The notes under the pieces are model-generated. The model was not told the DNA's origin. It was given only the letters and a program-made list of their open reading frames with translations, and did no database searches. Made by a program: the position numbers and the translations under genes. From Thermoflexus hugenholtzii JAD2 (lineage in GTDB: Bacteria > Chloroflexota > Limnocylindria > Limnocylindrales > Limnocylindraceae), in the NCBI GenBank assembly GCA_945862225.1, contig CAMAXG010000006.1, positions 1 through 32,324 of the forward strand: DNA of 32,324 nucleotides. Reading direction: 5' to 3'. Positions within the stretch are counted from its first letter, which is position 1. Each line of letters begins with the position of its first letter. Positions 400-26,589 of this stretch are shown here, piece after piece.

Positions 400-444
400 C
401 CCCGCAGGATCGTGCGTCACACGTACCCCCTGCGTATCGGGCGG

Positions 445-450
445 TACGAT
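445..450 (+). promoter_or_regulatory. Leaderless -10 element (TACGAT) of the acetyltransferase gene
   Basis: TACGAT ends exactly six bases before the ATG at 457. With the usual 6-8 base distance from -10 to transcription start, the mRNA would begin at or next to the start codon, leaving no room for a ribosome binding site. The same spacing recurs at six other genes here, which supports the call. No good -35 is visible. Confidence 0.6.
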
Positions 451-456
451 AGGCGC

Positions 457-2703: not shown

Positions 2704-2715
2704 CGGAGGGCTGAA

Positions 2716-4079: not shown

Positions 4080-4095
4080 GCGCCGCGGCCCGTCG

Positions 4096-4320: not shown

Positions 4321-4326
4321 TCGCCG

Positions 4327-4332
4327 ATTCTA
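4327..4332 (-). promoter_or_regulatory. Leaderless -10 element (TAGAAT) of the small membrane protein gene
   Basis: On the minus strand TAGAAT is followed by six bases and the ATG at 4320. It lies in the short gap after the lipocalin gene's stop at 4342, so it would act as an internal promoter of the minus-strand gene run. Confidence 0.6.
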
Positions 4333-4341
4333 GCGGGAGAG

Positions 4342-7793: not shown

Positions 7794-7795
7794 GA

Positions 7796-8545: not shown

Positions 8546-8551
8546 AAGACC

Positions 8552-9226: not shown

Positions 9227-9254
9227 GCCCTGATCGTGCCAGAGTTCCGCCCGC

Positions 9255-9260
9255 TATGAT
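9255..9260 (+). promoter_or_regulatory. Leaderless -10 element (TATGAT) before the 108-residue membrane protein
   Basis: TATGAT, close to the bacterial -10 consensus, ends six bases before the ATG at 9267. It lies in the 40-base gap between divergent starts. Confidence 0.65.
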
Positions 9261-9266
9261 TGCGCC

Positions 9267-9593
9267 ATGGATATGTTCACGCTCCCGTTCCTTCACCCAG
9301 CCGAGTTCTTCATCTCGCTGGCGATCGGCGGTGCCTTTGTCTACGTCTTCCAGAAGGCGGCGATGAGCTCTGAGCAGCGCGAGACCCCGTGGGTTCGTCG
9401 CTTCGTGACCGGCCCCAACGGCAAGGTGCTGTGGGGCGTGGCCTGGCTCGTGTGGGCGGTTGGCTTCGGCCTGCTGCTCGGCACCTTCACCGACAAGACC
9501 GCCGAATCACCATATGGCGCGGTCGGCCTCGTCGCCCTCTTCTCGGGATTCTTCGTGATGATGGGCTTCATCTGGGCCACGATCGGCGAATAG
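9267..9593 (+). CDS. Small three-helix membrane protein, function unknown
   Basis: A 108-residue protein with three hydrophobic segments (about residues 10-29, 50-70 and 80-104) separated by a charged loop with SSEQRETPWVRR. No signal peptide and no recognised family. It is transcribed from a leaderless TATGAT promoter and is followed after five bases by the secreted protease gene, which therefore probably shares its transcript. Confidence 0.7.
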   Translation: MDMFTLPFLHPAEFFISLAIGGAFVYVFQKAAMSSEQRETPWVRRFVTGPNGKVLWGVAWLVWAVGFGLLLGTFTDKTAESPYGAVGLVALFSGFFVMMGFIWATIGE

Positions 9594-9598
9594 CCACC

Positions 9599-12322
9599 AT
9601 GTTGCACCGCCTACCTGCCGCCGTGATGGCGGCACTTTTTATCTTCGGCGCCATCGCAGCCCCAGCACCCGCACGCGCCACATCGACACAAATAACAGCC
9701 GCACCTGAACCATTCGATTCACTCACCGTGCGCTTCGCCTACAACACCACCGTCGGCACGGCGGTGAGCGACGACGGCAAGACGCGCGAGATCCAACTGC
9801 GACCTGGCCAAGATGCAGAGACGGCACTCGCAGCATGGGAGCAGGCACCCGGTGTCGTTGGTGTCATTCCTGATCTGCAAGCCTTCCCGGTCATCGATCC
9901 GATCGATCCGTTCTACGCGTCGCAGTGGGACATGCACGTACCGACTGCGGGGAAAGATGGCGCTGCAAATGTTCTGCCAGCATGGAGCAACGCAACAGGT
10001 GCAGGAGCAGTTGTCGCGATCATCGATACCGGAAGCACCGCTCATCCGGATCTTGTTGCCAATACACCAGAAGGTTGGGGCGTTGACATGGTTGAGGACG
10101 CCGCAGGCGCCCGTGATGGGAATGGTCGTGATACTGACCCAACCGATGAGGGTGATTGGTATAGCTACACGGATAGCGCTGGAAAAACGTACTGGAAGTA
10201 TTCCTCATGGCATGGCACGCATGTCGCTGGAACGATTGGCGCCGCGCAAAACAACATCGGGGTGAGCGGTGTGGCGCCCAACGTTTCAATTTTCCATGTG
10301 CGCGTGTGCCACTCCGGCGGCTGCTGGTTCAACGACATTATTGACGGAATTCGCTGGGCTGCTGGCCTCACCACCACGTGGGACGGCCAGCAGTGGAGCA
10401 ACTACGGCCTTGCCGTTAACGCGCACCCGGCAGACGTCATCAACTTGTCGCTTGGTGGCGTCGGCGCGTGCTTTCCAGCGCTGCAAAATGCAATCACAGC
10501 GGCGCGTGCAGCTGGAACAGTTGTGGTGACGGCGGCAGGAAACAACACGATTGATGCGGCGAGGTTTCTGCCAGCAAACTGCAACGACACGGTGACCGTC
10601 GCGGCGACGGGCCGCGTTGGCGGGCTCGCTGGATACTCTAACTTCGGAAGCAGCATCGACATTGCTGCACCGGGTGGTGACATGCCACGTGATTCTGGAG
10701 TTCTCTCCACGATTGCTACAGGGGCAACAACACTCACCGGCTATGGCTACACGAACTACCAAGGCACGAGCATGGCGGCACCGCACGTTGCTGGCGTTGC
10801 AGCGCTTGTTGCAAGCCTGCACCCAACATGGGGCCCAGATGAAATTGAAGCGGCAATCTACGCGGGGGCTCGGCCATTCCCGGCCGACTCGCTTCGGCCC
10901 TGTGTCACAACAAGCGAAACCCCAACGGGAAGCCAGCGTCAATGCGGCGCAGGGCTATTGGATGCGGTCGGTGCGCTCAACATGGCGCAACCAACGTTAA
11001 CCATCACTGCACCAGATCGTCTTGCGGCTGGTGAGACCGCAACCGTTTCGGCAGCGAGTGATCTGCCTGGCATCGTCACGCTGGCGGTTGCGAGTGCAAC
11101 CGCGGCAAACTGCACCTTGGACGGCAGCACACTCACCGCCACCCAGACAGGAACCTGCACCCTCAACGCCGCAACACCAGCTACCGCCGACCACGTAGCG
11201 GCTAGTGCAACGTTCCATGTGACGGTCACCGGCACGCCGCAATCAATCAACTTCGGCGTTGGTCCACTGCTTACAGAGGGGGATGTGCCGTTCGGCACCA
11301 CCCCACCAGAACTCACCGCCACAGCCAGCTCGGGTCTTCCTGTGAGCTATGAGATCAGCACGCCGACCATTTGCGAGGCGCTGGCCCCAGATGGTCTCGT
11401 CAACGCTTGGCGCTTGCGCCTACTGAACGTGGGGACCTGCACCGTGCTCGCTACCCAGGCGGGGAGCACGGTCTACGAGCGCGCGACCTCAATTAGCCGC
11501 AGTTTCACCATCGTGCAAGGGAGCCAAACGATTGGGCTTGACGTCCTGACCGATCGCACCTTTGACCCGACCGCTCTGCAGGCCTTGCCGAGCCGCAGTA
11601 GCGCCGGCCTGCCACTCAACTACTCGGGCCTCTCGAGCAGCGTGTGCGATCCGCGCTTTAACGGCACCGGCTTTGAGCTCCACCTCCTTACACCGGGGAC
11701 CTGCACGATTCGCGCAGAGCAAGAGGGAACGAGCACCTATCGTGCGGCCGATTCGGTGACCCGAACGTTCGAGGTGCTCAAGCTGACGCAGACGCCGCTC
11801 ATCTTTGACGCGGGCCCCAGTTTCCACGTGGTCAAAAGCTCGAGTGGCTATGGGAGCGGTGGCGGCAGTTCCAGTGCGCCGTTCGTTGTAACGAGCTTGA
11901 CCCCAACAAAATGCTCCGTCAGCGGGCGCACGATTCGCTACCTCGCGACAGGCACCTGCATCTTGCAAGGCTCGAAGGCGGGTGACGTGTGGCACCAGCC
12001 CGCATACAAAACGATTCGCGTTACCGTCTTCGCCCCGGCACGGTCGACGGTTACGCCACGCATTCGACAGGTGGGGAAGATCGTGTACGGCACGCGTGGC
12101 ACCTGGGTCGGTAGCCCAACGCCAAGCTACAAGTACCAGTGGTACAGCTGCACCACTGCACGGCGCACGAGGTGCAGTGTGATCAGCGGCGCCACGTCGG
12201 TAAACCTGAAGGTCTCCAGCAAGATTGTTGGCAAATATGCCTTCTTGCGCGTCACCATGTACCAATACGGGAGCGAGCGCGCGCGACGTGACTCGAACGT
12301 TATTAGAATCTCCGCAAGATAA
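9599..12322 (+). CDS. Secreted subtilisin-like serine protease (peptidase S8) with C-terminal Ig-like repeats
   Basis: A 907-residue protein. A signal peptide (about residues 1-26, ending APARA) is followed by a short propeptide-like segment. The S8 domain (about 130-455) has the complete catalytic set: D143 in IIDTG, H205 in HGTHVAG, oxyanion N315 in AAGNN, and S391 in GTSMAAPHVAG. After it come an Ig-like segment (about 463-545), then two or three related repeats of roughly 90 residues, each with a cysteine pair and a GTCT(I/L)xA segment, and a final domain with YKYQWYSC. Such tails bind or span the cell envelope. The open frame extends to 9389, but that part overlaps the upstream gene and only the ATG at 9599 gives a signal peptide. 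There is no C-terminal anchor, so it is probably released or wall-associated. Confidence 0.92.
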   Translation: MLHRLPAAVMAALFIFGAIAAPAPARATSTQITAAPEPFDSLTVRFAYNTTVGTAVSDDGKTREIQLRPGQDAETALAAWEQAPGVVGVIPDLQAFPVIDPIDPFYASQWDMHVPTAGKDGAANVLPAWSNATGAGAVVAIIDTGSTAHPDLVANTPEGWGVDMVEDAAGARDGNGRDTDPTDEGDWYSYTDSAGKTYWKYSSWHGTHVAGTIGAAQNNIGVSGVAPNVSIFHVRVCHSGGCWFNDIIDGIRWAAGLTTTWDGQQWSNYGLAVNAHPADVINLSLGGVGACFPALQNAITAARAAGTVVVTAAGNNTIDAARFLPANCNDTVTVAATGRVGGLAGYSNFGSSIDIAAPGGDMPRDSGVLSTIATGATTLTGYGYTNYQGTSMAAPHVAGVAALVASLHPTWGPDEIEAAIYAGARPFPADSLRPCVTTSETPTGSQRQCGAGLLDAVGALNMAQPTLTITAPDRLAAGETATVSAASDLPGIVTLAVASATAANCTLDGSTLTATQTGTCTLNAATPATADHVAASATFHVTVTGTPQSINFGVGPLLTEGDVPFGTTPPELTATASSGLPVSYEISTPTICEALAPDGLVNAWRLRLLNVGTCTVLATQAGSTVYERATSISRSFTIVQGSQTIGLDVLTDRTFDPTALQALPSRSSAGLPLNYSGLSSSVCDPRFNGTGFELHLLTPGTCTIRAEQEGTSTYRAADSVTRTFEVLKLTQTPLIFDAGPSFHVVKSSSGYGSGGGSSSAPFVVTSLTPTKCSVSGRTIRYLATGTCILQGSKAGDVWHQPAYKTIRVTVFAPARSTVTPRIRQVGKIVYGTRGTWVGSPTPSYKYQWYSCTTARRTRCSVISGATSVNLKVSSKIVGKYAFLRVTMYQYGSERARRDSNVIRISAR

Positions 12323-13612
12323 ATGGCGCGCGCCGTAACGATCACCAAGAACAACCCGCGCGACCTGCGCCTCGTAACCGCCGGGCAAGGCATCTCACTG
12401 ATTGGTGACTCCATCACGCAGCTCGCACTGCCGATCATGGCGGTCGACCTGCTTGGCGCCGACTCACTCGGCACCGGCTTCCTCGGCGCGGCATCAACGC
12501 TCGCATATCTCTTCATCGGGCTACAGGCTGGTGTCTGGGTAGATCGTTCGTCACGACGTGCGTATCTGCTCGCCGCCGACCTGGTGCGCGTGGTGCTGCT
12601 CCTCGCGATTCCACTTGCATACGTGCTCAACGTGCTCACGCTGCCGTTGCTCATCGTCATGCAGGTTGGACTTGGCGCTGCAACGGTTTTCTTTAACGTG
12701 GCGTGGCCGGCGTACATTCCGCGACTCGCGAGCGGCGTCACGCTGCTCAAGCTCAACGCACGTATGGCAATCATGGGCGAGGGCGCCGGTTTCGTTGGTC
12801 CAGGCCTCGCCGGCGCACTGATCAACATCTTCAGTGCCCCCTTTGTGTTGGTGGTGGATGCAATCACCTTTGCGGTGAGCTACGTCAGCCTACGGGCGAT
12901 TCGCACGCCAGAGCCTCCGTCGCCCAAGAAGCGGAACACTTTGGTGCACGACCTTAAGGAAGGCCTGCGCGAGCTCTGGATTCGACCGAATCTTCGACTC
13001 ATCACTCTTGAGGCGGTGAACGGCAACATCGCCTTTAGCGTGATGATTGGACAGGCGATCATCTTTCAGCGCATCGACCTAGGCTTCGAGCCTGCGCTGA
13101 TTGGCGCCGTTGCATCAGCAGGATTCCTGGGTGGGCTCTTCGGTAGCCTCTCAGCACCCTACCTGGTGAAGCGTGTGGGCTTCGGCCGACTCATGATCGT
13201 TGGCACTGCGCTCTTCGGTATCAACGAGTTCCTGCTACCCGCGGCGGCCTTTGTGCCGCGAGAGTTCGCGCCACTCTTCTCACTCGCCAACTTCTTCATT
13301 GGGGGCTACTTCCTGCTGATTTATGTGGTGCCGGTCACCACCTTCCGGCAGCAGGCGGTTCCCGACCGGCTGCTTGGGCGCGTGATGTCGATCAATCGCA
13401 CCCTTACCTGGGGCTTTGGCGCCACTTTCGGCTACCTGCTCGGTGGCGTGCTCGGCAACGCCTTCGGCCGACCCACCGCCCTCATCGTGGGCGCCGTGCT
13501 TCAGACCCTCGTCCCTCTGGTCATCTTCGGCTTCGCCCGAATCTGGCGCTACCCTACGATTGAATCGGCGGCGAAGTTTGACAATCGCGCTGCCGCCGCA
13601 GCAGAGAGGTAA
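12323..13612 (+). CDS. Major facilitator superfamily transporter (MFS_3/EntS-like)
   Basis: A 429-residue protein with about 12 hydrophobic segments. The N-terminus RLVTAGQGISLIGDSITQLALP is the typical first helix of drug/siderophore-type MFS exporters, and VWVDRSSRRAYLLAADLVR matches the DRxxRR loop between helices 2 and 3. Symport or export substrate cannot be told. The ATG follows the protease stop codon with no gap. A TAGAAT at 12304-12309, inside the end of the protease gene, could give a transcript with a very short leader. Confidence 0.9.
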   Translation: MARAVTITKNNPRDLRLVTAGQGISLIGDSITQLALPIMAVDLLGADSLGTGFLGAASTLAYLFIGLQAGVWVDRSSRRAYLLAADLVRVVLLLAIPLAYVLNVLTLPLLIVMQVGLGAATVFFNVAWPAYIPRLASGVTLLKLNARMAIMGEGAGFVGPGLAGALINIFSAPFVLVVDAITFAVSYVSLRAIRTPEPPSPKKRNTLVHDLKEGLRELWIRPNLRLITLEAVNGNIAFSVMIGQAIIFQRIDLGFEPALIGAVASAGFLGGLFGSLSAPYLVKRVGFGRLMIVGTALFGINEFLLPAAAFVPREFAPLFSLANFFIGGYFLLIYVVPVTTFRQQAVPDRLLGRVMSINRTLTWGFGATFGYLLGGVLGNAFGRPTALIVGAVLQTLVPLVIFGFARIWRYPTIESAAKFDNRAAAAAER

Positions 13613-13617
13613 CCACC

Positions 13618-13779
13618 ATGTGCCATGAGATTGCCTGCGCCCGCTGCGGTAAGCCAACCTGGGAGGGGTGTGGCGAGCACATTGAGTACGCCCTGAAGGG
13701 CGTGCCGCTTGACGAGCGTTGCACCTGCCCGCGGCTACCCGTAGCGGTCGAGCCGAAGCCGACCGGTCGCACCGCTTAA
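13618..13779 (+). CDS. 53-residue zinc-ribbon-like small protein
   Basis: A short gene between the MFS and glycosyltransferase genes. It encodes 53 residues with CARCGKPTWEGCGEH near the start and RCTC later, giving a C-x2-C ... C-x-x-H ... C-x-C arrangement that would bind one zinc ion. The pattern C-x-x-CGK-x-TW-x-GCG-x-H is one I associate with widespread small uncharacterised bacterial proteins. A GAGAGGT Shine-Dalgarno sequence lies about seven bases before the ATG, the stop of the previous gene is five bases upstream, and the next start is three bases after its stop, all as expected for a real operon member. Function unknown. Confidence 0.72.
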   Translation: MCHEIACARCGKPTWEGCGEHIEYALKGVPLDERCTCPRLPVAVEPKPTGRTA

Positions 13780-13782
13780 CTC

Positions 13783-15615
13783 GTGGCCATACACCTCAGC
13801 ACACTCCCGCGCACAACGAAGCGCCTGGTGCTGCGCACCGCCCGACTCACGAAGGCGAAGCTGCTGGGGGAGGCGAAGCGCTTCTATCGCAGCTACGTCT
13901 CCAAAACGGCGCTCAAGCACACCGTTGAGCGCACCACCACCACCGAAGGGCCGGCCGGCGTTGCAATCGTGGCGCTCTATCCGCGCGGACCCCTGCTTGC
14001 ATCTGTCACGCGCCTGATCAGCACGCTTGTCGACGAGGGGTATCACGTGATCGCCGTCGTGAACAAGAGTCGCCTCGCCCCTGCGTGGATTACCGCCCTG
14101 TCACAGCTGAACATCACGCTGCTGAGTCGCCCCAACGTTGGTCGTGACTTTGGTGCGTACAAGGTCGGCTACCTATTTGCAGAAACCCACGGGCTTCTCG
14201 CAACAGCAAAGCACCTGCTCTTCGCGAATGACAGCGTCTTCTATGGGCCGCGCTCACAGGCGTTCATCAGCGATTTGCTCAAAGATGAGCACGTCTGGAC
14301 AGCAATGTTCGTAAGCAACCAGATTGATACGCATGCCCAGAGCTTCTTCCAGCGTTTTAGCAGCGAGCAGTTCCTGCACAGCGCATTCAAAAAGTTCTGG
14401 CACACCTACTACCCATCGGAAGAGCGGAACCACACGATCCAGAAGGGCGAGATCAGACTCTCTACCACGCTCACCGCGCTGGAGTACACACCGCACGCCT
14501 ATGTCACCGCTGACCGCGTGCTGTCCAACAGCGCGTTCGGTGACTTCACCGAGAACGAGAAGCACAACATCCGCCATGTGGCCATCGCGCGGCGCACAGC
14601 ACAGCTCTCACTAGAGCGACATCAGCTTGAGACACTCATGCGAGCGCAATATCACACGTCAAATATCACCCACGTGCAGGGGACGCTCACCTCGCGCGTA
14701 CTTGGTGCCCCCATGAAGCTCGACATACTCACGCTCTACGTGACGCAGGAGGCGGTGCGTGACGCGCTGACCGCACTCGGCACCCCGCCAGATGAGACGC
14801 TCGCAACCCTTACGTTCATGGTTACTTCGCAGAACAAGCGCAGTGCGCAAACTGTGCGCAGCCTACATTCGCTGATGAGCGCACTGCACCACACTCTTGC
14901 GCCGCGCACCTACCTCGAGGTGGGCGTTTTCACAGGGAACAGCCTCAAGCTTGCAACCTGCCCAGCGGTTGGCATTGACCCCGCGCCACAGGTGACACAA
15001 CCCCTACCCGCCACCGCACGGGTGATCACAAGCACCGGCGACGACTTCTTTGCGCAGTCACGCCCGCTCGAGAGCGTGTTCCCCACCAGTGCCCCGCGAC
15101 GCGGAGACGGCGAACTCTTCGCCGAACTCGCGCTCATCGACGGCATGCACCACGCCGAGTTTGCCTTGCGGGACTTCATGAACATCGAGCGCAACTCCGC
15201 GCCGTGGAGCGTGATCGTGTTTGACGATGCGCTTCCCGAGAACCCCGAGCAGGCGCTCCGTATCCGTGCCACCAGCAGCTGGACGGGTGACGTTTTCCGC
15301 GTGGAGCAGGTGCTCAAGAGGTATCGACCTGACCTTGTGACCCTGCGCGTGGACACCGCCACCGGTGCACTCCTGGTATTCGGCCTAAACCACCTCGACC
15401 AGCGACTCACCACCTCGTACGAGCAGATCGTTGCTGAGTACGTGCAGCCCGACCCGCAGGTCGTTCCCGACGAGGTGCTCCGCCGCGATGGGGTCATCTC
15501 CATCGACGCCCTGATTCAGAGCGGCGTGCTCGAAGTAATTCGTACCGCTCGCGAGCAGAAGGCCTCGAGCGAGTGGGTCGCCCACGCGGTGCGCGCGAGG
15601 CTTAGCGGACAGTAG
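13783..15615 (+). CDS. Two-domain protein: RgpF-like glycosyltransferase fused to a class I SAM methyltransferase
   Basis: A 610-residue protein starting at a GTG three bases after the previous stop. The N-terminal half (about residues 45-250) resembles rhamnan synthesis protein F: VALYPRG, the motif GRDFGAY at 120-126 and FANDSVFYGP from 147, which in RgpF-type enzymes form the nucleotide-sugar site. The second half (about 365-560) is a Methyltransf_24-like Rossmann domain: YLEVGVFTGNS at 377-387 is the SAM-binding loop, AVGIDPAP follows, and LALIDGMHH and VIVFDDALPEN are the acidic strands. Together they suggest an enzyme that extends and methylates a cell-surface glycan in one polypeptide. 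Sugar and acceptor are unknown. The domain boundary is inferred, not measured. Confidence 0.75.
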   Translation: MAIHLSTLPRTTKRLVLRTARLTKAKLLGEAKRFYRSYVSKTALKHTVERTTTTEGPAGVAIVALYPRGPLLASVTRLISTLVDEGYHVIAVVNKSRLAPAWITALSQLNITLLSRPNVGRDFGAYKVGYLFAETHGLLATAKHLLFANDSVFYGPRSQAFISDLLKDEHVWTAMFVSNQIDTHAQSFFQRFSSEQFLHSAFKKFWHTYYPSEERNHTIQKGEIRLSTTLTALEYTPHAYVTADRVLSNSAFGDFTENEKHNIRHVAIARRTAQLSLERHQLETLMRAQYHTSNITHVQGTLTSRVLGAPMKLDILTLYVTQEAVRDALTALGTPPDETLATLTFMVTSQNKRSAQTVRSLHSLMSALHHTLAPRTYLEVGVFTGNSLKLATCPAVGIDPAPQVTQPLPATARVITSTGDDFFAQSRPLESVFPTSAPRRGDGELFAELALIDGMHHAEFALRDFMNIERNSAPWSVIVFDDALPENPEQALRIRATSSWTGDVFRVEQVLKRYRPDLVTLRVDTATGALLVFGLNHLDQRLTTSYEQIVAEYVQPDPQVVPDEVLRRDGVISIDALIQSGVLEVIRTAREQKASSEWVAHAVRARLSGQ

Positions 15616-16172: not shown

Positions 16173-17027
16173 TCAGTTTGCATTTGTCGAGTCTAACTTC
16201 ACTGATACAGTGCGCCGCTGACCGCCACGCAACACCTCAACCTTTGCCGAACCGGTACCAAATAACGCGCAGAGTTCATACCAAATGTCAATTCGTCGGC
16301 TCACCTGAGAACCATTGAATTTTGTCACGACGTCGCCTTTTACCAAGCCTCTCTTCTCGTCCGCAGTGCGGACAATCTTCACAAACTGCGAACCGGTTGC
16401 GGAGAAGTCTTCAAGAAGGGACACCCCAAGACGAGCTCGCTTTAACGTCGTTTGCTTACGAAGGTGTGGAATGACGAACTTGATCATCTCCGCGGAAACC
16501 GCGTAGTTGATGCCCTGCATCGCGCCACCCAAAAACGGCATGCCAATGACCTCGCCACGAAGGTTCAGCAGCGGGCCACCTGAGTTCCCAGGATTGATAA
16601 CCGCATCTGTCTGCAATACATGTTCGAACAATCGGCCATCTGGACCGTAGGCCGCTCTTGCCAGCCCACTGACAACCCCGCGTGTGACGGTATTGATCAA
16701 GCCGCCCGGTGAACCAATGGCAACACACGCCTCCCCGAGGGAGACGTTTTTCTGGAGCGATAGCTTTGGCGCCGTAGAATCGCAGTAGAGTAATGCAAGA
16801 TCTACCTCCTCAGCAGTTCCAAGTATTCGTGCATTGAATACTTTCTCATTGCAGCGCACCTTAACGGAGTCATGAGCTGCGTCGTTAATCACATGGAAGT
16901 TTGTAATGAACAACTTTGGTCCAACGCAGAAACCACTCCCAGTTCCAGAAGAGGTAATGACATACGCAGTGGATGGCAGCGCTGCTGCCACAACCTGTTC
17001 GACGCTCTTGAGTCGTTTGGTAACCAT
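16173..17027 (-). CDS. HtrA/DegP-like trypsin-fold serine protease with PDZ domain, no signal peptide
   Basis: A 284-residue protein. The protease domain (about 10-190) has the full triad: H45 in TNFHV, D76 in EVDLAL, and S149 in GNSGGPL. The C-terminal part (about 200-280) looks like one PDZ domain, with RLGVSL, GLVKGDVVTKFNG and a closing VEVLRGGQRRTVSVKL. Unlike usual HtrA proteins there is no signal peptide or membrane anchor; the N-terminus MVTKRLKSVEQVVAAALPST runs straight into the domain, so the enzyme is probably cytoplasmic. Its ATG overlaps the stop of the YbjN-like gene (ATGA), so the two are translationally coupled. The coding sequence is AT-richer than most neighbours (24 of 60 GC in the line beginning 16861). 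Confidence 0.9.
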   Translation of the reverse strand: MVTKRLKSVEQVVAAALPSTAYVITSSGTGSGFCVGPKLFITNFHVINDAAHDSVKVRCNEKVFNARILGTAEEVDLALLYCDSTAPKLSLQKNVSLGEACVAIGSPGGLINTVTRGVVSGLARAAYGPDGRLFEHVLQTDAVINPGNSGGPLLNLRGEVIGMPFLGGAMQGINYAVSAEMIKFVIPHLRKQTTLKRARLGVSLLEDFSATGSQFVKIVRTADEKRGLVKGDVVTKFNGSQVSRRIDIWYELCALFGTGSAKVEVLRGGQRRTVSVKLDSTNAN

Positions 17028-17689
17028 CAGAGGCTGGAAATCATTCGGCGGCCGTGAGTATTGTCTGGCACATCCACATCGGCCGTTTCGCCATCAACCT
17101 CTTTTGCGATGTTGGTATCAATCTCGTCAACCCAAACAACAAATGTTATTGCAAGTTCGACCAGATAGTTGGCCGTTAACCAACGTGATGGGACTGATGC
17201 GCTGGCAATGAGGTCGCTCTCCTCATGGAGTTCAACCGTGCCAATAATCGGATAGGAAGCGTTCAACTCAGCGGCGATTTCCAGCGCACGTTCCTTCTTT
17301 TTCACATCTTGAACTAAGAGTGAGAATATGCGTACGACTGGGCTGCCTGTCTCAAAAGCGCTCTCTTTGTCGTGCTCCAGATTGATGTGCGCAGCAGCAC
17401 TTCCATATTCAAAAAACACGATTCCAGGTTTCTCATCCATGCGAGAAACTGTGCAACCGGTGGATTCAGTCCGCTCAACTGCAACCGCGAAGAGCAAGTC
17501 TGGATCAACCGTGTACCCCGTTTTTTCAGAGGCTTCGTGATCCCAGACACCTAAGCCCACTGATCCACTACCGACTCGTTCTGCGAGCGTTGCAAGCAGT
17601 ACTTCAGCTGCGCGGCTGATTTCCCCTGACCGTCGTCGTTTGAATAGGCCGTCGGTCCGCCTTGAAAGACTTTTGAGCCATGTGAGCAT
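17027..17689 (-). CDS. YbjN/CesT-like (TY-Chap type) protein, possible peptide chaperone
   Basis: A 220-residue cytoplasmic protein. The C-terminal two thirds have the alternating pattern of YbjN and type III secretion chaperone-like proteins: a strand pair with PGIVFFEYG, RIFSLLVQDV, then the conserved helix AAELNAS, SYPIIGTVELHEESDLIASASVP, and a closing helix ending VVWVDEIDTNIAKEVDG. In this fold the 'Asn-Ala... Gly... aDe.d' pattern is typical. The ATG at 17689 is chosen because GGAGGG lies just upstream; the open frame continues far beyond but only as a shadow of the opposite gene. It overlaps the trypsin-like protease gene by ATGA, suggesting that the two proteins work together. Family assignment is by pattern only. 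Confidence 0.6.
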   Translation of the reverse strand: MLTWLKSLSRRTDGLFKRRRSGEISRAAEVLLATLAERVGSGSVGLGVWDHEASEKTGYTVDPDLLFAVAVERTESTGCTVSRMDEKPGIVFFEYGSAAAHINLEHDKESAFETGSPVVRIFSLLVQDVKKKERALEIAAELNASYPIIGTVELHEESDLIASASVPSRWLTANYLVELAITFVVWVDEIDTNIAKEVDGETADVDVPDNTHGRRMISSL

Positions 17690-17759
17690 GACCACCCTCC
17701 CTACTGACAATTGGCACTGCGGTGGGGCAGCATAGCGAATGTTCTTCACGTTGAGAAGG

Positions 17760-17765
17760 TAGAAT
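17760..17765 (+). promoter_or_regulatory. Probable -10 element (TAGAAT) of the deoxyribonucleotidase-like gene
   Basis: TAGAAT lies 19 bases upstream of the GTG at 17785, with a strong GGAGGAG Shine-Dalgarno sequence in between, so this promoter would give a short-leader mRNA rather than a leaderless one. No convincing -35 is seen. It lies in a 95-base divergent promoter region; TATGCT at 17729-17734 on the minus strand may serve the opposite gene. Confidence 0.4.
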
Positions 17766-17784
17766 TCAAAAAGGAGGAGCAGCA

Positions 17785-18267
17785 GTGAAAAAGACCCTCT
17801 ACATCGACATGGACAACGTCCTGGTGGACTTCCCCTCGGGGATGGCCGCCTGCGACCCAGCGCTGCTCGAGCAGCACAAAGAGAGCCCCGACGAGATCCC
17901 TGGGATCTTCGCGCTGATGCAGCCGATGCCGGGCGCCATCGAGGCTTATCACGAGCTGAGCGAGCTCTTTGACACGTACATCCTCTCGACGGCGCCATGG
18001 GAGAACCCGAGCGCCTGGTCCGACAAGCTGGAGTGGGTGAAGCGGCACCTTGGCGCACCCGCCCACAAGCGGCTGATCCTCTCGCACAACAAGCACCTCA
18101 ATGCTGGGCACTACCTAGTAGATGACCGTTCGAAGAACGGTGCAGATGCGTTTGGGAAGGTGCCTGGTCAGGAGTGGATTCACTTTGGGCATGAGCCGTT
18201 CAGCTCGTGGGCAAAGGTTGTGGCGTACCTTAAAGAGAACGCAGCACCTCCCGAACCAGGAGCATGA
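17785..18267 (+). CDS. 5'(3')-deoxyribonucleotidase-like HAD hydrolase (NT5C family)
   Basis: A 160-residue cytoplasmic protein. HAD motif I is DMDNVL with nucleophile D8 and acid D10, followed by VDFPSGMAACDP, the cap region typical of cytosolic deoxyribonucleotidases. Motif II is LSTAPW, then KLEWVKRHLG, and motif IV is LVDDRSKNGADAF. Family members dephosphorylate deoxynucleoside monophosphates, tuning nucleotide pools. Length is slightly short but normal for bacterial members. The GTG start is fixed by a GGAGGAG ribosome binding site eight bases upstream. The secreted protein gene follows nine bases after the stop. Confidence 0.87.
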   Translation: MKKTLYIDMDNVLVDFPSGMAACDPALLEQHKESPDEIPGIFALMQPMPGAIEAYHELSELFDTYILSTAPWENPSAWSDKLEWVKRHLGAPAHKRLILSHNKHLNAGHYLVDDRSKNGADAFGKVPGQEWIHFGHEPFSSWAKVVAYLKENAAPPEPGA

Positions 18268-19759: not shown

Positions 19760-20740
19760 TTGCCAAATTCACAGATATCAGAGGTGAGCCCCTTGCAATC
19801 ACAATATCTAGACATCAACGGCTACACCACAACCCTTGGCGAAATGCGCCTTGGGGATTCTCTTGAATTCCTAGAGTCTGAGGACGGACATGCGCTTAAG
19901 GAATCAGTGAGCACAATCGTAACGTCACCGCCATTTCCGTTGCTAAGCGAAAAAGCTTATGGAAATCTAGAAGGCAAGGAATACATAGACTGGTTGTGTT
20001 CATTCGCCCAACCATTGCGAGAAATTATGAAACCAGACGGCTCCTTGTTCATTGAAATTGGTAACACCTGGGTTTCAGGCGAACCGGCAATGTCAATGGT
20101 TCCACTAAAGGCACTGATGGCCTTTGCCGAGAGCGGAAACTACACAATTTGCCAGCATTTGATTTATCACAATCCTGCTCGCCCACCAGGACCAGCATCC
20201 TGGGTCACTGCCAAACGGCTACGCCTCAAGGATGACTTCACCCATTGGTTTTGGCTGGGAAAATCAGCTGATGTAAGGGCGGACAACAGCGCTGTCCTTA
20301 AGGAATACAGTCCAGCAATGACAAGATTGCTGGATAAAAAGTTGGATACAAGCGGGACGCGACCTTCCGCGCACAAGATCAATGGTAAGAACTTTTTCAA
20401 AGATAATGGCGGTTCCATAGCAGGAAGCGTAATTTCAATTCCGAATACTGGTTGGGACAACTACCACCGCTGGTGCACAAATGAGGAAATTGCAGCGCAC
20501 CCAGCTCGTATGCCTTTTGATCTTGCGCGCTTTTTCATTGATCTGACAAGCACAACGGGAGATCTAATCTTTGACCCATTTGGCGGTAGCAACACGGTAG
20601 GTGCTGCAGCCGAGGTGCTGGCTAGGCGATGGATGACTGTTGACCTTGAATCGCAATACATCGCGGGATCACTTGGTCGTTTTGCTGATGAGTCAGGGAC
20701 ACTCCCAATCGACCTAAAAGTGTCCAGAGCAAATGGCTAG
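19760..20740 (+). CDS. DNA methyltransferase, beta-class amino-methyltransferase (probably N4-cytosine or N6-adenine)
   Basis: A protein of up to 326 residues. The catalytic motif IV is TSPPF (residues 55-59) and comes before the SAM-binding motif I, FDPFGGSNT (271-279), the order of the beta class. LGDSLEFL precedes motif IV, HPARMPFDLARFFI precedes motif I, and WMTVDLESQYI closes the fold. TSPPF with this order suggests N4-cytosine methylation, but adenine cannot be excluded. There is no separate specificity subunit in the window; the region between motifs (about 140-250) would be the target recognition part. The start is uncertain: TTG 19760, GTG 19784 or TTG 19793 are all in frame. It opens a four-gene operon and overlaps the helicase gene by eight bases. 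Its GC content is lower than that of genes to the left. Confidence 0.88.
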   Translation: MPNSQISEVSPLQSQYLDINGYTTTLGEMRLGDSLEFLESEDGHALKESVSTIVTSPPFPLLSEKAYGNLEGKEYIDWLCSFAQPLREIMKPDGSLFIEIGNTWVSGEPAMSMVPLKALMAFAESGNYTICQHLIYHNPARPPGPASWVTAKRLRLKDDFTHWFWLGKSADVRADNSAVLKEYSPAMTRLLDKKLDTSGTRPSAHKINGKNFFKDNGGSIAGSVISIPNTGWDNYHRWCTNEEIAAHPARMPFDLARFFIDLTSTTGDLIFDPFGGSNTVGAAAEVLARRWMTVDLESQYIAGSLGRFADESGTLPIDLKVSRANG

Positions 20741-21917
20741 CAAGCCCCTTCGTGACTGGCAGAACAAAGCAATAGCGGCTTGGACAGCAAACAATTTCCG
20801 CGGCATTGCGCAAGTCGTAACCGGCGGAGGAAAAACATTCTTGGCAGGGGCTGCATTCAAGCTTTTGCAAGCGAGCAAGCCTGATGCGAAGCTATTTGTC
20901 GTAGTGCCCACAATTGCCCTAGCTGACCAATGGTTTGTGGCCCTCGTTGAGGACCATAAGTACCTCCCAGACGAGATCGCAATTTGGGGAGGTGGGAACA
21001 AGATCAGCGCGGGGAAACTAATCACGATCGCGGTCACACCTACCGCTATTAAGTTAACGCCAGGGTTAAGTAACGCATTAGACATACTGCTTGTGTTTGA
21101 CGAGTGCCACCACGCCGGAGCACCAACCGTCGCGGCGATTGCATCGATTAAGTTTGGGGCAACACTCGGGCTGTCAGCTACCCCAGAGCGTCAGTACGAC
21201 GAGTCATTCAATGAGCAAATTGTTCCACTACTTGGTCCGATCATTGTCAATTATGGCTACGAAGAGGCGCTCGCAGATGGTGTTATTTGCCCATTTGAAC
21301 TTACTCACGTATTTGCCCCAATGGATGCAGTTGAAGACGAGAAGTTCAGGAAGCTTTCTCGCAATGTGGCTGTGGCCATAGGGAAATTTGGCCACGGAAG
21401 CCCTGAGGCAACTATGGCCTTGCGGGCTCGCGCGCGAATGGTTAACTCTGTTCGCAGTCGCGTGATCATCGCAATCGAACTCATCAAAAAGTACTCACAA
21501 GGGCGAACAATCGTTTTTGACGAATCAATTGAGCGCGTTGAACTTATCAAGTCTGGACTGCTAATGAATCAAATGACAGCACTTACGTACCACAGTCGAA
21601 TGTCGCCGGCAGCTGCGCGATCAAATTTGTTGATGTACAGGCGCGGCCAAGCGCAGGTACTTCTGACATGCCGCGCGCTTGACGAGGGCGCGAATATTCC
21701 AGAAACCGAAACAGGGATTATCGTCTCAAGCACTGCAAGTGAACGTCAGCGAGTGCAGCGCCTAGGGCGAGTTTTGCGGGCACTTCCAGGAAAACAGTCG
21801 GCCAGCATCTACACCATTTATTCAACAGAACAAGAGAAGCAGCGGCTGCTCAAGCCGGGCGCCGAACGCAACACGCGATGGATGACCACAGAGTTTGGAG
21901 CAAACAAGAGTGGATAA
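20733..21917 (+). CDS. DEAD/DEAH-box SF2 helicase (SSL2/type I-III restriction-like)
   Basis: A 394-residue protein with the complete SF2 motor: Walker A TGGGKT (residues 30-35), motif Ia VVVPTIALADQW, Walker B DECHH (123-127), motif III SAT (148-150), motif V ALDEGANIP (315-323) and motif VI QRLGRVLR (342-349) with its arginine finger. The arrangement resembles COG1061-type helicases that move along DNA in restriction and defence systems. It has no accessory nuclease domain; the nuclease would have to be supplied by another gene. It overlaps the methyltransferase stop (ATGGCTAG) and its own stop overlaps the start of the next gene, so translation of three genes is coupled. Confidence 0.92.
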   Translation: MASKPLRDWQNKAIAAWTANNFRGIAQVVTGGGKTFLAGAAFKLLQASKPDAKLFVVVPTIALADQWFVALVEDHKYLPDEIAIWGGGNKISAGKLITIAVTPTAIKLTPGLSNALDILLVFDECHHAGAPTVAAIASIKFGATLGLSATPERQYDESFNEQIVPLLGPIIVNYGYEEALADGVICPFELTHVFAPMDAVEDEKFRKLSRNVAVAIGKFGHGSPEATMALRARARMVNSVRSRVIIAIELIKKYSQGRTIVFDESIERVELIKSGLLMNQMTALTYHSRMSPAAARSNLLMYRRGQAQVLLTCRALDEGANIPETETGIIVSSTASERQRVQRLGRVLRALPGKQSASIYTIYSTEQEKQRLLKPGAERNTRWMTTEFGANKSG

Positions 21918-22683
21918 AGTGTTTGTGGGAGAAAGCGAATATTCCGCAGTCAGCAACCTCGGAATGCTTGAAGATCATTTCGAGCAAATCATTTACCAAC
22001 ATGCCCATCAGCTTTATCCTGGATATTACGTGGTTCCATTTGCACCACTTGTCGAATCCTTGCACGGCGCGAACCAGCCTGATATTGCCTTGGTTTCCCG
22101 CAATCTTGATTACTGGTACGTAGTAGAGGCCGAGATGGCGCACCATAGCTTGAATGGGCATGTACTGCCACAAGTCAGAACTTTTGCGCACGCGAATTAT
22201 GCCACCCGGCAAGTAATTGAAGCGCTCCAGTCTGGCCTGCCTAAGGTTGATCAACGCGATCTAATTAGACTAGTGCGCGATGTTCACCCTGAAGTGCTGG
22301 TCATCGTTTACGGCTCTGCTTCAGACTGGCGCGAGCCTTTGCTTGGCGTACCTTCCCTCCTTCATGAAATTAGGTTGTTCCGTCCGCTACAGGGCCCCCC
22401 TGTGCTGTACATGGACGGCCCAACCTTGCGTCAACCTTCCCTGCTTGCATTCAGTTGTGTTCACCGAATCGAGATGGCAAGCCTATTGTTTCTAGACGGC
22501 ACAATGGGTGACACGATTCCCAAGCGAATTGAAATTGAGGTTGAAGAAGCGATCATTCAGGCTGAAGTTCTTGACCAAGATCACCTCACAGTCCTGAGAT
22601 CCCCAGCATTTCGAGACCTAGCACCAGGCCAATACCAACTGATACAATCCGAGTCTGGTTCATTTAATCTCGGCAAGATCTAA
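21910..22683 (+). CDS. Operon protein of unknown family, possible PD-(D/E)xK-like nuclease
   Basis: A 257-residue protein read from a GTG that overlaps the helicase stop by eight bases, with GGAG nine bases upstream; an in-frame TTG at 21895 is less likely. No family is recognised with certainty. The N-terminal part reads helix (LEDHFEQIIYQH), strand (YYVVPFAPLV), an acidic turn with D58 in QPDIALV, then WYVVEAEMAHHS with E73 and E75. A helix with acidic residue, Asp, and Glu-x-(Lys/Glu) spaced about 15 residues after the Asp is the layout of PD-(D/E)xK nucleases, here with Glu in place of the usual Lys. In a methyltransferase-helicase operon that lacks another nuclease, this gene is the best candidate for the effector. 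The C-terminal half (about 130-257) is beta-rich and unassigned. Confidence 0.6.
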   Translation: MDKVFVGESEYSAVSNLGMLEDHFEQIIYQHAHQLYPGYYVVPFAPLVESLHGANQPDIALVSRNLDYWYVVEAEMAHHSLNGHVLPQVRTFAHANYATRQVIEALQSGLPKVDQRDLIRLVRDVHPEVLVIVYGSASDWREPLLGVPSLLHEIRLFRPLQGPPVLYMDGPTLRQPSLLAFSCVHRIEMASLLFLDGTMGDTIPKRIEIEVEEAIIQAEVLDQDHLTVLRSPAFRDLAPGQYQLIQSESGSFNLGKI

Positions 22684-22708
22684 GCGGATTTAGAGTTTTG
22701 GAGGGGCA

Positions 22709-24304
22709 ATGAGTAAAGTAAATATGGTAATTGAGCCTGAGTCAATCCTTACCTATAAGCGCCTAACGTATTACCCATGGACCGCCCTAGCAGAACTCAT
22801 TGACAATTCAACAACGAGCTATGCGCTGAATAAAGACGCTCTTGATGCTGCATACCGAGCAGAAGGAGCCGATGAGCGTGTCGAAGTTCGGGTGACTATT
22901 GGAGAAACTGAAGGTGAAAAGTGGGTGCGGGTAACCGACACCGCATTAGGCATGGACTTACCCACCTTGATCAATTCGCTAAAGATCGGCCGCCCACCGG
23001 TTGACACTTCCCATCGGTCGAAATACGGCATGGGCATGAAAACCGCTTCATGTTGGTTTGGCGATCGATGGACTATTACAACAAGTCGGCTTGGCGAAAA
23101 AGGCGGGCACAGAGTGACTATTGACGTCAATGCAATCGCGGCGGGTAACAACGATCTCAACTATGAATTCTTGAAAAATCACGGAGAAAACGAGCACTTC
23201 ACAATCATTGAAATCTCAAGTCTTCATCAAACCAGTCTTGCGGGACGCACTTTGGGAAGGATTAGGACCTATCTACAGGGAATCTATCGGAAAGATCTCG
23301 GGACCGAAACTCAACCTGGTGAGATTCGGCTGTATGTGAATGACGTAGCAATCAGTGGGGATGTGTTCAAAGACACGGATTTCTTGCAAGACGCCTCAGG
23401 GAATCTTTACAAGAAGCCGTTCAACAAAGAGTGGACTCGACCCGGCGGAAAACGCCAGGTTGCTCAAGGGTGGATCGGCATTCTGGAATCAGGAAGTCGC
23501 TCAAAGGCTGGGTTTTCGCTCTTTGAGTCTGGCCGAATGCTTAAAGGTCACCCCGAAGCGTGGCGCCCGCAGGGGATTTTCGGTCAGCTGCTGGGGACAA
23601 ACGACTTGATCAATCAGCGTCTAGTTGGAGAAGTAGAACTATTTGGGTTTATTCCAACCCACACCAAGGACGACGTTTCCTGGCAGGGCGACGAACAGGA
23701 TGAAGTAGAGAGCTATCTTGAGGAAGTCGCCAAAGACTATCGACAGGTAGCGCAAGCACGGCGAAAGCATTCAGATGATGAGCGAGGGCCTTCCGCAAAA
23801 GAGCGGGCCATGGCTGTATCTGAGCTTCGAACAGAGTTTGGTACCCCTGAGTTCCGTGAAGTCTTCAACGATCGTGTTCCACTTCCGCCACGCGAGTTAA
23901 TCGAAGCAGACCTTGCAACATTAAAGGCGAATCTTGCGAATCGACGCGAATGGGAAATTGAAGTACCGCTGGAGACTGTTGACGGGGAGCCGATGTTGGC
24001 GCGAGTGGGGATTGATGAAGATCTGCGAACGAACGACCCATACATCGTTTGGCAGCAATCTGCGTCAGGGAAACAAGTTGATGTGGTGATCAACTGGAAT
24101 CACCCTGCGATTGAGATGATTTCTGGCGCCGACGATTTAGTGGTCTATATGCGTCTTGCTGCATACGAAGCCTTGTCCGAGTGGCAAGCGGTGCGATTGG
24201 GCGAACGAGTCCGGCCGGATGAAATTCGTCTCATTAAAGGAAGACTGTTAGCGATTGCTTACGCTACAGAATTTCTTGCGAGGAACGAAGACCGAAACGC
24301 CTGA
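22709..24304 (+). CDS. GHKL (HATPase_c_3) ATPase, MORC/MutL-like
   Basis: A 531-residue protein with the Bergerat fold of GHKL ATPases at its N-terminus: the N-box WTALAELIDNST (E29 and N33 bind Mg-ATP), motif II DTALGMD (D77 to D83) and the lid SKYGMGMKTAS (104-114). An S5-like domain follows, then a Gln/Glu-rich helical region (about 330-420) that may dimerise, and a C-terminal region of unknown fold ending in ARNEDRNA. Motif II has Ala where the usual DxGxG has Gly, and the N-box lacks the usual Asp after NS. Prokaryotic MORC-like ATPases are known from restriction-modification-type operons. A strong GGAGG ribosome binding site lies six bases before the ATG. It is the last gene of the operon. 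Confidence 0.85.
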   Translation: MSKVNMVIEPESILTYKRLTYYPWTALAELIDNSTTSYALNKDALDAAYRAEGADERVEVRVTIGETEGEKWVRVTDTALGMDLPTLINSLKIGRPPVDTSHRSKYGMGMKTASCWFGDRWTITTSRLGEKGGHRVTIDVNAIAAGNNDLNYEFLKNHGENEHFTIIEISSLHQTSLAGRTLGRIRTYLQGIYRKDLGTETQPGEIRLYVNDVAISGDVFKDTDFLQDASGNLYKKPFNKEWTRPGGKRQVAQGWIGILESGSRSKAGFSLFESGRMLKGHPEAWRPQGIFGQLLGTNDLINQRLVGEVELFGFIPTHTKDDVSWQGDEQDEVESYLEEVAKDYRQVAQARRKHSDDERGPSAKERAMAVSELRTEFGTPEFREVFNDRVPLPPRELIEADLATLKANLANRREWEIEVPLETVDGEPMLARVGIDEDLRTNDPYIVWQQSASGKQVDVVINWNHPAIEMISGADDLVVYMRLAAYEALSEWQAVRLGERVRPDEIRLIKGRLLAIAYATEFLARNEDRNA

Positions 24305-24355: not shown

Positions 24356-26251
24356 TCAAGGCTTGATCCGTGATTCAACGAATCTCTTCGTCTCCGCGTC
24401 CGTGAACGTGACCACGCACCCATTCATACCCCTCGTCAGGAGTACCCGATACGTCTGGGCAATGAGCTGCTTGTAGAACTCAGGGTCCTTCTTATCCGCA
24501 CGCTTCACGACGGAGTCGAATGAATGCTGGGCTTGAGCGACCCATCCCTTGCCAGCTCGCCACACCAGGTCATCGCCCCAGATGACGCCAACGCGATCAA
24601 ACTCGAAGCCCTGAGCGGTATACACACAGCCAACCTGGTGGACCCCTTCTGGGTCAATCGCCCACGCATTAGAGCTCGGGATTCCAGGTGCCAAGCGACC
24701 AGCTGTTGGCTTCGCGTTCCACGGTCGCTGCCAATCGCCAACGACAACGTCGTTCACAAGCGTGCCATCCCCAAGAGGTTCACTCCACGGCCAGCAGAAA
24801 CCAGCCACGAGCCGGGAATTCTGCCCCTTCTTGAGCGACTGTTGTACTTCCCGCTCCAGTGCAGCCGGCGATTCCACAACGGAGAAGTCAAACCCAGCCT
24901 GCTCAATTTCAAGGATCTCGTCACCGTCTGTGCTGACGCCGAGGAGTCGATCCACCCAGCGCACATACGTATCGGATCCACCGCAACGGAATTGCGCTGC
25001 TAGGTCATATTCAAACACTGGTTGACCACGCTTTGCGCTTGCTTCCCGAATTAGTGCGGCACTGCCGACCTCTCCTGGTCGCACAACCTGCCGGTCGTCA
25101 ATGAAGAATGCGGCGATCTTTGCTGAATCAAGAAGCTCTTCAATTTGTGAGCCGCCACGGTCTTCCTTCTTCGTCCATTGGTTTGCGCTTGTTTCGCGGA
25201 TACGGTGTGCTTCGTCGGCAACAAGCAAATCAAATGGCTCACCCTTCTTCATGAATGAATTGAAATACTTCATGAGCTGCCCGGCGCGCGGTCCAACACG
25301 CTTGCGAAGACCCTCCGTGAACGCGCGTGAGCCAGTGGCGTGGGCAACGGTCTTCCCTTCCGCTGCAGCACTCGCCAGCAACTGCAGTGCGATCAGGCTC
25401 TTTCCTGTACCCGGCCCTCCATTAATGATGAACGTTGACGGCTTGCTCTTCTTGCCAGCGCGCTGAAGTTCATCGTGCACTGCCATATATGCCGTGACCT
25501 GTTCGTCAAGCAGCACGAATGCCTTTTCGTTAGAGATAACGGCAGCGACGTGATCCAAGAGCTTCTTGCTTGGGCGATATTCAGATGAAGAGATTTTCTC
25601 AATAAGATCAGTGCTATCCCCAGCCCCAACTTGGTCTGATAGGTGGCGTGCAAGGTCTTCAAACTGGTCTTGCGCATAAATAGGGGAGGTGCTGAGAAGT
25701 TCCTTGAACTTCGGATCGTAGAGCGGGGCTGCGCCAGACGAGGTTCGATCTAGGTTATGGAGGAATGCAAGCGAGCTAAGTCCGACGTCGCCCGATGCAA
25801 ATATTTCACTCATGTCGCGAAGGAACTGCTCATACCTGTGGACTTGGGCGCTAGGGTGCAGTGTGTCCTTCGGGCTGCCGCCGGCGAACGCTACTGCAAC
25901 GTGTTCTGTCATGGAGCTTTCATCCACATGGCTCCACTGCTTTAGTTCGATGATGATGGCGTTGTCAGCTGGTCCACCTCCGGTCGCCGAAGTGCGCTTA
26001 CCGGCAACCATCACGTCCAGCCGTTTCGAGGTGAGAGGTAGTTGAAGCTCAACAAGCACTCCCTGGGGGCCGAGCCCAGCGAGAGTAAACACGTTTGACA
26101 TCTGCTGAAGGGAGTTCCGCCAAGAGTTCAGCTCGCCTTTGTTGGCGTGGTGGCCCTTTTCAATGGCATAGGCCTCATCGATCTTGTCGGCAAGCCGATT
26201 AAGCTGGGCGTCGCGGATGAATTCCTTTACGGCGCCTTGATAGAGGTACAT
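24356..26251 (-). CDS. PD-(D/E)xK nuclease fused to DUF2075-type DNA/RNA helicase
   Basis: A 631-residue protein. The N-terminal domain (about 1-180) has a PD-(D/E)xK layout: E68 in VLVELQ, D79 in KRLDVMV, then E102-x-K104 in IIIELKQW. The C-terminal part is a DUF2075/SF1-like ATPase: Walker A GGPGTGKS (278-285), Walker B LLVADEAHR (342-350), a DDRQVVRPGE motif (sensor-like), AAQFRCGG, and later GCVYTAQGFEFDRVGVIWG and the closing YRVLLTRGMNG, which match helicase motifs V and VI. The fold and domain pairing are those of mobile-element restriction factors. It is convergent with the methyltransferase-helicase operon 52 bases away, and has its own TACGAT leaderless promoter. It could be a separate defence gene or a fifth part of the same system. 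Confidence 0.87.
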   Translation of the reverse strand: MYLYQGAVKEFIRDAQLNRLADKIDEAYAIEKGHHANKGELNSWRNSLQQMSNVFTLAGLGPQGVLVELQLPLTSKRLDVMVAGKRTSATGGGPADNAIIIELKQWSHVDESSMTEHVAVAFAGGSPKDTLHPSAQVHRYEQFLRDMSEIFASGDVGLSSLAFLHNLDRTSSGAAPLYDPKFKELLSTSPIYAQDQFEDLARHLSDQVGAGDSTDLIEKISSSEYRPSKKLLDHVAAVISNEKAFVLLDEQVTAYMAVHDELQRAGKKSKPSTFIINGGPGTGKSLIALQLLASAAAEGKTVAHATGSRAFTEGLRKRVGPRAGQLMKYFNSFMKKGEPFDLLVADEAHRIRETSANQWTKKEDRGGSQIEELLDSAKIAAFFIDDRQVVRPGEVGSAALIREASAKRGQPVFEYDLAAQFRCGGSDTYVRWVDRLLGVSTDGDEILEIEQAGFDFSVVESPAALEREVQQSLKKGQNSRLVAGFCWPWSEPLGDGTLVNDVVVGDWQRPWNAKPTAGRLAPGIPSSNAWAIDPEGVHQVGCVYTAQGFEFDRVGVIWGDDLVWRAGKGWVAQAQHSFDSVVKRADKKDPEFYKQLIAQTYRVLLTRGMNGCVVTFTDAETKRFVESRIKP

Positions 26252-26375: not shown

Positions 26376-26555
26376 ATGTCTGCCAAGCCAACTCGCCGTT
26401 CCACCCTGCTCGCGCTCGCACTGCTCATGGCTGCGGCCGTGCCGGTGCGTGCCACTACCCCGCCGACCTTTACGGTGGTCGACAGCATCTATCCAGGTGG
26501 CGATAGCTCTGGCGCCATGGTGGCTGCGTCGCCCGTGCTGAAATCCTTTCAGTAG
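26376..26555 (+). pseudogene. Truncated ELWxxDGT surface protein: signal peptide and first residues only
   Basis: An open frame of 59 residues from an ATG with an AGGAG ribosome binding site. Its first 36 or so residues are nearly the same as those of the full gene at 26629, including the identical ALLMAAAVPVRATTPPTFTV stretch, and the bases upstream are also similar. It then diverges and stops at TAG 26555, before any ELW repeat. A perfect hairpin CTGAAATCCTTTCAG (26538-26552) covers the end. It reads as the remnant of a tandem duplicate. If translated it would yield a secreted peptide of about 30 residues. Confidence 0.7.
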
Positions 26556-26589
26556 ACCGCTCTAAAGAGGCGTGCCAAAATCCACTGAC

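Follow-up and report, generated by a model that had tools for sequence, protein, structure and literature searches.

The window analysed here is a 32,324-nucleotide stretch of DNA from Thermoflexus hugenholtzii JAD2 (contig CAMAXG010000006.1, positions 1 to 32,324), and the subject of this study is a cassette of four genes lying between positions 19760 and 24304 (Table 1). These genes encode a DNA methyltransferase (MTase; P1), a superfamily 2 (SF2) helicase (P2), a predicted restriction endonuclease (P3) and a MORC-family ATPase (P4). We consider it likely that these genes form a mobile ATP-dependent restriction-modification (RM) system, probably directed against phages or other foreign DNA. 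The same four genes occur together in three or more phyla, and the set appears to be a new variant within the MORC-containing RM operons described by Iyer et al. in 2008, with a working similar to that of the CglI and NgoAVII systems, different parts and an added MORC clamp.

An earlier sequence-only reading of this DNA had proposed four same-strand genes, three of them joined by 8-base overlaps, a drop in G+C content, and the assignment of a MTase, an SF2 helicase and a GHKL ATPase. The four open reading frames (ORFs) were found where that reading had placed them, all on the plus strand, and the two overlaps, which join MTase, helicase and P3, are real. The three assignments are confirmed by family matches far beyond chance, P1 to Pfam N6_N4_Mtase (1.6e-27), P2 to ResIII (2.2e-19) and P4 to HATPase_c_3 (1.4e-16). 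Both overlaps likely lead to translational coupling, while the third junction, between P3 and the MORC gene, is a 25-bp gap with no overlap. The MTase ORF starts with TTG, although alternative GTG or TTG starts a few codons downstream are possible, and the P3 ORF starts with GTG. All four frames are open and their motifs intact.

Table 1. Cassette features in the window, and the loci of MORC-Z1 type used for comparison.
Feature	Position	Strand	Basis
P1, beta-class DNA methyltransferase, M.PvuII type	19760..20740	+	Pfam N6_N4_Mtase, 1boo, motifs
P2, XPB/Rad25/PbeA-like SF2 helicase or translocase	20733..21917	+	ResIII, Helicase_C, PbeA, XPBII
P3, predicted restriction endonuclease	21910..22683	+	conserved residues, AlphaFold2, Foldseek
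P3 C-terminal domain, predicted B3-like pseudobarrel (residues 160-257)	22387..22680	+	separate model, Foldseek
P4, MORC-family GHKL-S5 ATPase	22709..24304	+	HATPase_c_3, MORC motif
8-bp overlap ATGGCTAG, MTase stop / helicase start	20733..20740	+	read from sequence
8-bp overlap GTGGATAA, helicase stop / P3 start	21910..21917	+	read from sequence
MORC-Z1 loci	L018, L044 and similar L017, L019, L020, L034-L036		

The composition of the cassette is foreign to its surroundings, and the proposed drop in G+C is real. G+C content is 50.3% against 62.5% in window bases 1-15600, where no segment of 4,545 bp falls below 60.9%. G+C at third codon positions (GC3) is 0.47-0.53 in the cassette genes, whereas most flanking genes have 0.65-0.82, with lower values in the gene at 16173-17027 (0.55) and an adjacent Schlafen-type gene (0.60). 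The MORC gene was not found in any of 20 relatives searched, 12 of them of the same genus; since all are drafts, with a completeness of 67-92% within the genus, single absences are weak evidence, though the pattern of absence is consistent. In the same-genus genome G403, contigs end at the island edges. From the low G+C and the missing MORC gene in same-genus genomes, the cassette looks horizontally acquired. The host is a small-genome bacterium.

A conserved neighbourhood in other genomes had been set beforehand as a test of the proposed system, and it was found. A scan of genome contigs with the single P3 sequence gave no match, and a two-sequence alignment of P3 gave six loci. Four of the six contain a full-length P3 family member, in Caldilineaceae (L027, likewise Chloroflexi), Opitutaceae (L028), Planctomycetales (L029) and Chloroflexi HOG57 (L030), while the other two match the nuclease domain only. 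In all four full-length cases the same three partners, a PvuII-like MTase, an XPB-like helicase and a MORC, adjoin P3. The gene order is that of the window in L027, L029 and L030, and MORC-MTase-helicase-P3 in L028, where the MORC gene is interrupted by an assembly gap (NN) and not by a proven frameshift. Overlap of genes recurs as well, the MTase and helicase genes sharing 4 bp in L027 and L029. A MORC search of viral contigs revealed a further, helicase-less version in a provirus (IMGVR_UViG_2883794882_000007, L033:1-4688), where MTase, P3 and MORC lie directly beside a phage integrase. The position beside a phage integrase is a typical site of phage-borne accessory defence genes. The plasmids searched with P3 and its relatives yielded nothing, and the plasmid matches to P4 were MORC-Z1 systems in both cases inspected.

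Judging from its alignment, P1 is a beta-class MTase of the M.PvuII type. It matches M.PvuII, the solved N4-cytosine methyltransferase (PDB 1boo), at E = 2.7e-65 with 41% identity over 286 aligned residues, and carries motif IV as TSPPF and motif I as DPFGGSNTVG. This relationship makes N4-cytosine the probable methylation type. Scanning viral contigs for PvuII-like MTases gave 80 loci, 7 of them close, and in none did the sequence covered include a P3 or MORC gene as partner; such MTases often occur without these partners, and thus the MTase alone is no marker of the system.

P2 is, by its motifs (TGGGKT, DECH, SATP and QRVQRLGRVLR), a complete SF2 helicase of the XPB/Rad25-like kind. It also matches Pfam Helicase_C (4e-14), the C-terminal part of the PADLOC PbeA profile (2.9e-70, profile positions 253-635 of 672) and NCBIfam TIGR04095 (3.6e-53, far under the cut-off of that family). 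The best relative in the PDB, obtained with a two-sequence profile, is XPBII of the XPB-Bax1 complex (2.4e-36). The chain of 394 amino acids stops after the helicase core and has no fused nuclease, and the Pfam scan gave no match to a Z1 domain.

The third protein had been suspected to be a nuclease, and the conserved residues and the predicted fold support this. Searches of Pfam, NCBIfam and PHROGs gave no match to P3, and PADLOC gave none of significance. Alignment of six sequences revealed 13 invariant residues, among them E21, D58, E73-x-E75, W69, H79, H84 and Q88. The E-D-ExE series is the active-site pattern of PD-(D/E)XK nucleases with the lysine position occupied by Glu in all six P3s, a substitution known for BamHI. 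The AlphaFold2 model of full P3 is confident, with a predicted local distance difference test (pLDDT) score of 88.1, and its core order, H21-30, E39-43, E59-63, E69-76, H81-94 and E128-134, is the alpha-beta order of PD-(D/E)XK enzymes. A Foldseek search of the PDB with this model gave two main classes of matches. The first is nucleases, namely E. coli SduA, which is the best by Foldseek probability (E 5e-3), R2 endonuclease, Bax1, EndoMS, Can2, MunI and a Pyrococcus repair endonuclease; the viral structure library also returned many PD-(D/E)XK proteins. The second is B3-type DNA-binding domains, namely ARF1, VRN1, LEC2 and the N-terminal domain of LlaJI.R1.

When the C-terminal part was modelled separately from residue 155 (pLDDT 80, with model residues 12-22 poor), its best PDB match was the VRN1 B3 domain (probability 1.00, TMq 0.51), followed by the LlaJI.R1 N-terminal domain (probability 0.97, TMq 0.51), LEC2 and ARF1. 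B3 folds are thus the top matches of this part, yet with TM of about 0.5 and E of 0.02. The domain boundary finds independent support in a second nuclease family, which hhalign aligns with P3 at 98.1% (E 7e-14) over residues 3-177 only; one of its members, encoded beside an HsdM gene, ends in a RAMA domain instead. Mean identity among the six P3s is 52% in residues 55-92, around the active site, and 21% in the C-terminal domain. Taken together, the N-terminal part is likely a PD-(D/E)XK nuclease domain and the C-terminal ~95 residues, about 165-257, are predicted, probably rather than with certainty, to form a B3-like DNA-binding domain. P3 would then probably be the restriction endonuclease and at the same time supply the DNA reader, and the earlier view that the operon has no specificity subunit is therefore probably wrong.

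The nucleases sharing the N-terminal domain of P3 form a family found in L031:2214-4875 (Thermotogales), L032, L021 and L022. The nuclease of L031 is fused to the RAMA domain and lies downstream of the HsdM-type methylase, which suggests a further RM arrangement, not yet catalogued, whose reader can be exchanged.

P4 is, by family match and motifs, a MORC-family GHKL-S5 ATPase. All four GHKL motifs are present, as E29/D32/N33, D77-x-A79-x-G81, G107-x-G109-x-K111 and the S5 HTKDD loop, and E29, D32, N33, D77, G81, G109, K111 and T165 are conserved. The S5 motif GhXhhpXXRhl is described as uniting MORCs against other GHKL proteins (Iyer et al., PMC2292703). In P4 it reads GFSLFESGRML at residues 268-278, with a match arising by chance in 15 of 2000 shuffles, and the provirus MORC differs from it at one position. 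Among solved structures, the MORC sequence profiles matched HtpG, topoisomerase VI-B and MutL, all at weak E, and no MORC structure was reached. In a tree of 15 MORCs, the six cassette MORCs are separated from the nine of Z1-type loci by a 100/100 branch.

From these assignments the following mechanism can be proposed. The discrimination of self from non-self would depend on P1, which would methylate a specific host sequence, while the B3-like domain of P3 would read the DNA sequence and its PD-(D/E)XK domain would cut. The cutting would be gated by the two ATPases, P2 and P4. P3 sitting on an unmodified site would trigger P2, as an XPB-like double-strand translocase or helicase, to remodel or move the complex, and a P4 dimer would close on the DNA as a clamp or loop and license or position P3. 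CglI/NgoAVII offers the best mechanistic precedent by analogy: there the B3-domain nuclease binds an unmethylated site, the partner SF2 ATPase hydrolyses ATP, and the DNA is then cut (PMC4267653). For the MORC, Iyer et al. proposed by analogy with MutL and topoisomerases that RM-linked members loop DNA between recognition and cleavage sites (PMC2292703). A second functional parallel may be seen in VcSduA, a fusion of GHKL ATPase and PD-(D/E)xK nuclease; it protects against phages, and control of the nuclease by the GHKL part has been hypothesised (PMC12137116). The P2-P3 pair may also resemble archaeal XPB-Bax1, as XPBII is the best PDB relative of P2 and Bax1, at weak scores, is among the P3 matches.

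Several observations weigh against an RM system of this kind. The replacement of the canonical lysine in every P3 means that nuclease activity is not certain. The Foldseek E-values of P3 are weak (SduA 5e-3, VRN1 2e-2), and both fold calls consequently lean on the consistency of many matches and on the conserved residues. The provirus variant lacks the helicase, which is thus not universally needed. P3 is rare, the system being present in 2 of the 400 sampled genomes of the host phylum. One of the two, G105, is the HOG57 genome, loci L016 and L030 being identical, and this places the host in the Chloroflexi. Finally, the window shows no depletion of CAGCTG (13 observed, 8.2 expected), so that a PvuII-like target does not seem to be avoided there.

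The same genes could instead serve abortive defence, with MORC and helicase sensing phage DNA or replication intermediates and unleashing P3 on all DNA, and with the MTase as an accessory or regulator. Gating of a nuclease by a GHKL protein has a precedent in Shedu with a GHKL domain (PMC12137116) and gating by a helicase in the Hachiman nuclease-helicase (PMC12278908), and the best nuclease match of P3 by probability is itself SduA. Nevertheless, the MTase is retained in all six cassette loci including the helicase-less provirus, and its site-specific PvuII type points to site protection; we regard abortive defence as rather improbable. Methyl-directed DNA repair is less probable still. In that reading P4 would be a MutL analogue, P3 a nickase like MutH, Vsr or EndoMS, P2 would unwind and P1 would set the strand mark. 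The combination of GHKL ATPase, nuclease, helicase and methylase does mirror mismatch repair, as Iyer et al. pointed out (PMC2292703). EndoMS and the Pyrococcus repair endonuclease are among the matches of P3, and of the archaeal XPB-Bax1 pair one half is matched by P2 and the other by P3. However, the sporadic distribution, low G+C, absence from same-genus genomes and provirus copy fit defence better, P1 is an RM enzyme of the PvuII type, and the probable reader of P3 would recognise a sequence rather than a mismatch. That unrelated genes came together by chance, or that the island is decayed and has no joint function, might be imagined from the single copy seen in the genus and the few relatives known, but it is very improbable. 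It is contradicted already by the conserved neighbourhood, the same set with coupled genes in four other genomes of three phyla, and the open frames with intact motifs and a MORC group specific to the cassette also speak against it.

The RM reading thus has to be set beside the systems already described. CglI/NgoAVII (PMC4267653) similarly has a separate MTase, a separate nuclease and a separate SF2 ATPase. The C-terminal B3-type reader of its nuclease has a probable counterpart in P3, and the logic of site binding, ATP hydrolysis and cleavage would be shared. Its three genes, however, encode a phospholipase D (PLD) nuclease, an ATPase with DEAD and Z1 domains and a 5-methylcytosine (m5C) MTase, without MORC, whereas the cassette has a PD-(D/E)XK nuclease, an XPB-like helicase lacking Z1, a PvuII-type beta MTase and an added MORC. 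The group 1 MORC-RM operons (PMC2292703) combine a MORC GHKL ATPase, a Rad25-like SF2 helicase, a DNA methylase and a restriction-fold nuclease, but their helicases are commonly fused to nucleases and their methylases are mostly of the cytosine and rarely of the adenine type; in the cassette, the predicted nuclease is the separate P3 with its probable B3-like reader and the MTase is PvuII-type.

MORC-Z1-PD-(D/E)XK systems (MzaABCDE-like) also bring together a MTase, a MORC, an SF2-type ATPase and a PD-(D/E)XK nuclease. They differ in having an m5C MTase, a Z1 protein in place of the XPB-like helicase, a DUF4420 nuclease and MORCs across the 100/100 branch. Pfam, PADLOC and NCBIfam scans gave no match to Z1, DUF4420 or AIPR in the cassette, the MzaB score was 24.6 against a cut-off of 850, and P3 has no detectable profile similarity to the DUF4420 nuclease. 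In L018 and L044, a C5-cytosine methylase, a Z1 protein and a DUF4420 nuclease were annotated or found by scanning, and L018 has an HhH-GPD glycosylase gene downstream.

Type III RM (Mod/Res) shares the Rad25-like SF2 helicase motor and the beta-class MTase, but in Res helicase and nuclease form a single chain, whose specificity comes from Mod, whereas helicase and nuclease are separate in the cassette. Assignment to type III was rejected, P2 having no fused nuclease and the nuclease being a separate gene with its own probable reader. The helicase core is closest to PbeA of PbeABCD/CxC-DndE (PMC10853773), yet the cassette lacks the HKD nuclease domain, ABC ATPase, DndE and small protein of that system; the helicase core alone matches PbeA, and PbeB-D have no match in the cassette proteins. 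Hma (PADLOC 2021, PMC8565338) follows the same theme of helicase, methylase and ATPase with three genes, an m5C MTase and no separate nuclease, and no Hma profile is among the matches listed for the cassette proteins.

The suggestion that this set is undescribed therefore stands in part. Neither the four-gene set nor a P3 model was found in PADLOC 2023, Pfam, NCBIfam 2026 or PHROGs, and no description of the set was found in the open-access literature searched, including the text of PMC2292703. Operons of MORC, Rad25-like helicase, methylase and nuclease have nevertheless been known since 2008 (PMC2292703), and ATP-dependent restriction by a MTase, a B3-nuclease and an SF2 ATPase has been established for CglI/NgoAVII (PMC4267653). 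What P3 adds is a nuclease family without a matching model in the libraries searched.

A stronger version of the RM reading, which we put forward tentatively and think unlikely to hold in full, is that of a distinct RM class, in which a B3/PD-(D/E)XK nuclease that reads its site would always need the MORC as a licensing clamp, with the XPB-like motor an optional accelerator, absent in the provirus. If true, it would provide a tractable prokaryotic system for measuring what MORC proteins did biochemically in their ancestral role, which they would share with eukaryotic gene silencing. The biochemistry of prokaryotic MORC ATPases is still poorly understood (PMC8011034), and prokaryotic MORCs are thought to be the source of the eukaryotic MORC chromatin silencers (PMC2292703). 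The MORC step is open to testing in this cassette, which is compact, has an MTase of recognisable type and a nuclease-reader that can be separated, and exists naturally both with the helicase and without it.

Convergent to the cassette lies a gene for a Schlafen group 3 (SLFN-g3) DNA/RNA helicase (24356-26251, minus strand, G+C 55.7%), with a possible ExK motif (IIIELKQW) in the N-terminal region, which may be a second defence gene. A copy 74% identical occurs in a different neighbourhood of the same-genus genome G400, indicating that it moves independently of the cassette. Between the SLFN gene and an intact repeat-protein gene starting at 26572 sits a short, truncated duplicate of the beginning of the latter (26376-26555), with the same signal-peptide-like N terminus. 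On the other side, a second low-GC stretch (16173-18058, minus strand, about 52%) contains a trypsin-like PDZ protease beside a gene with a YbjN/CesT-type chaperone domain.

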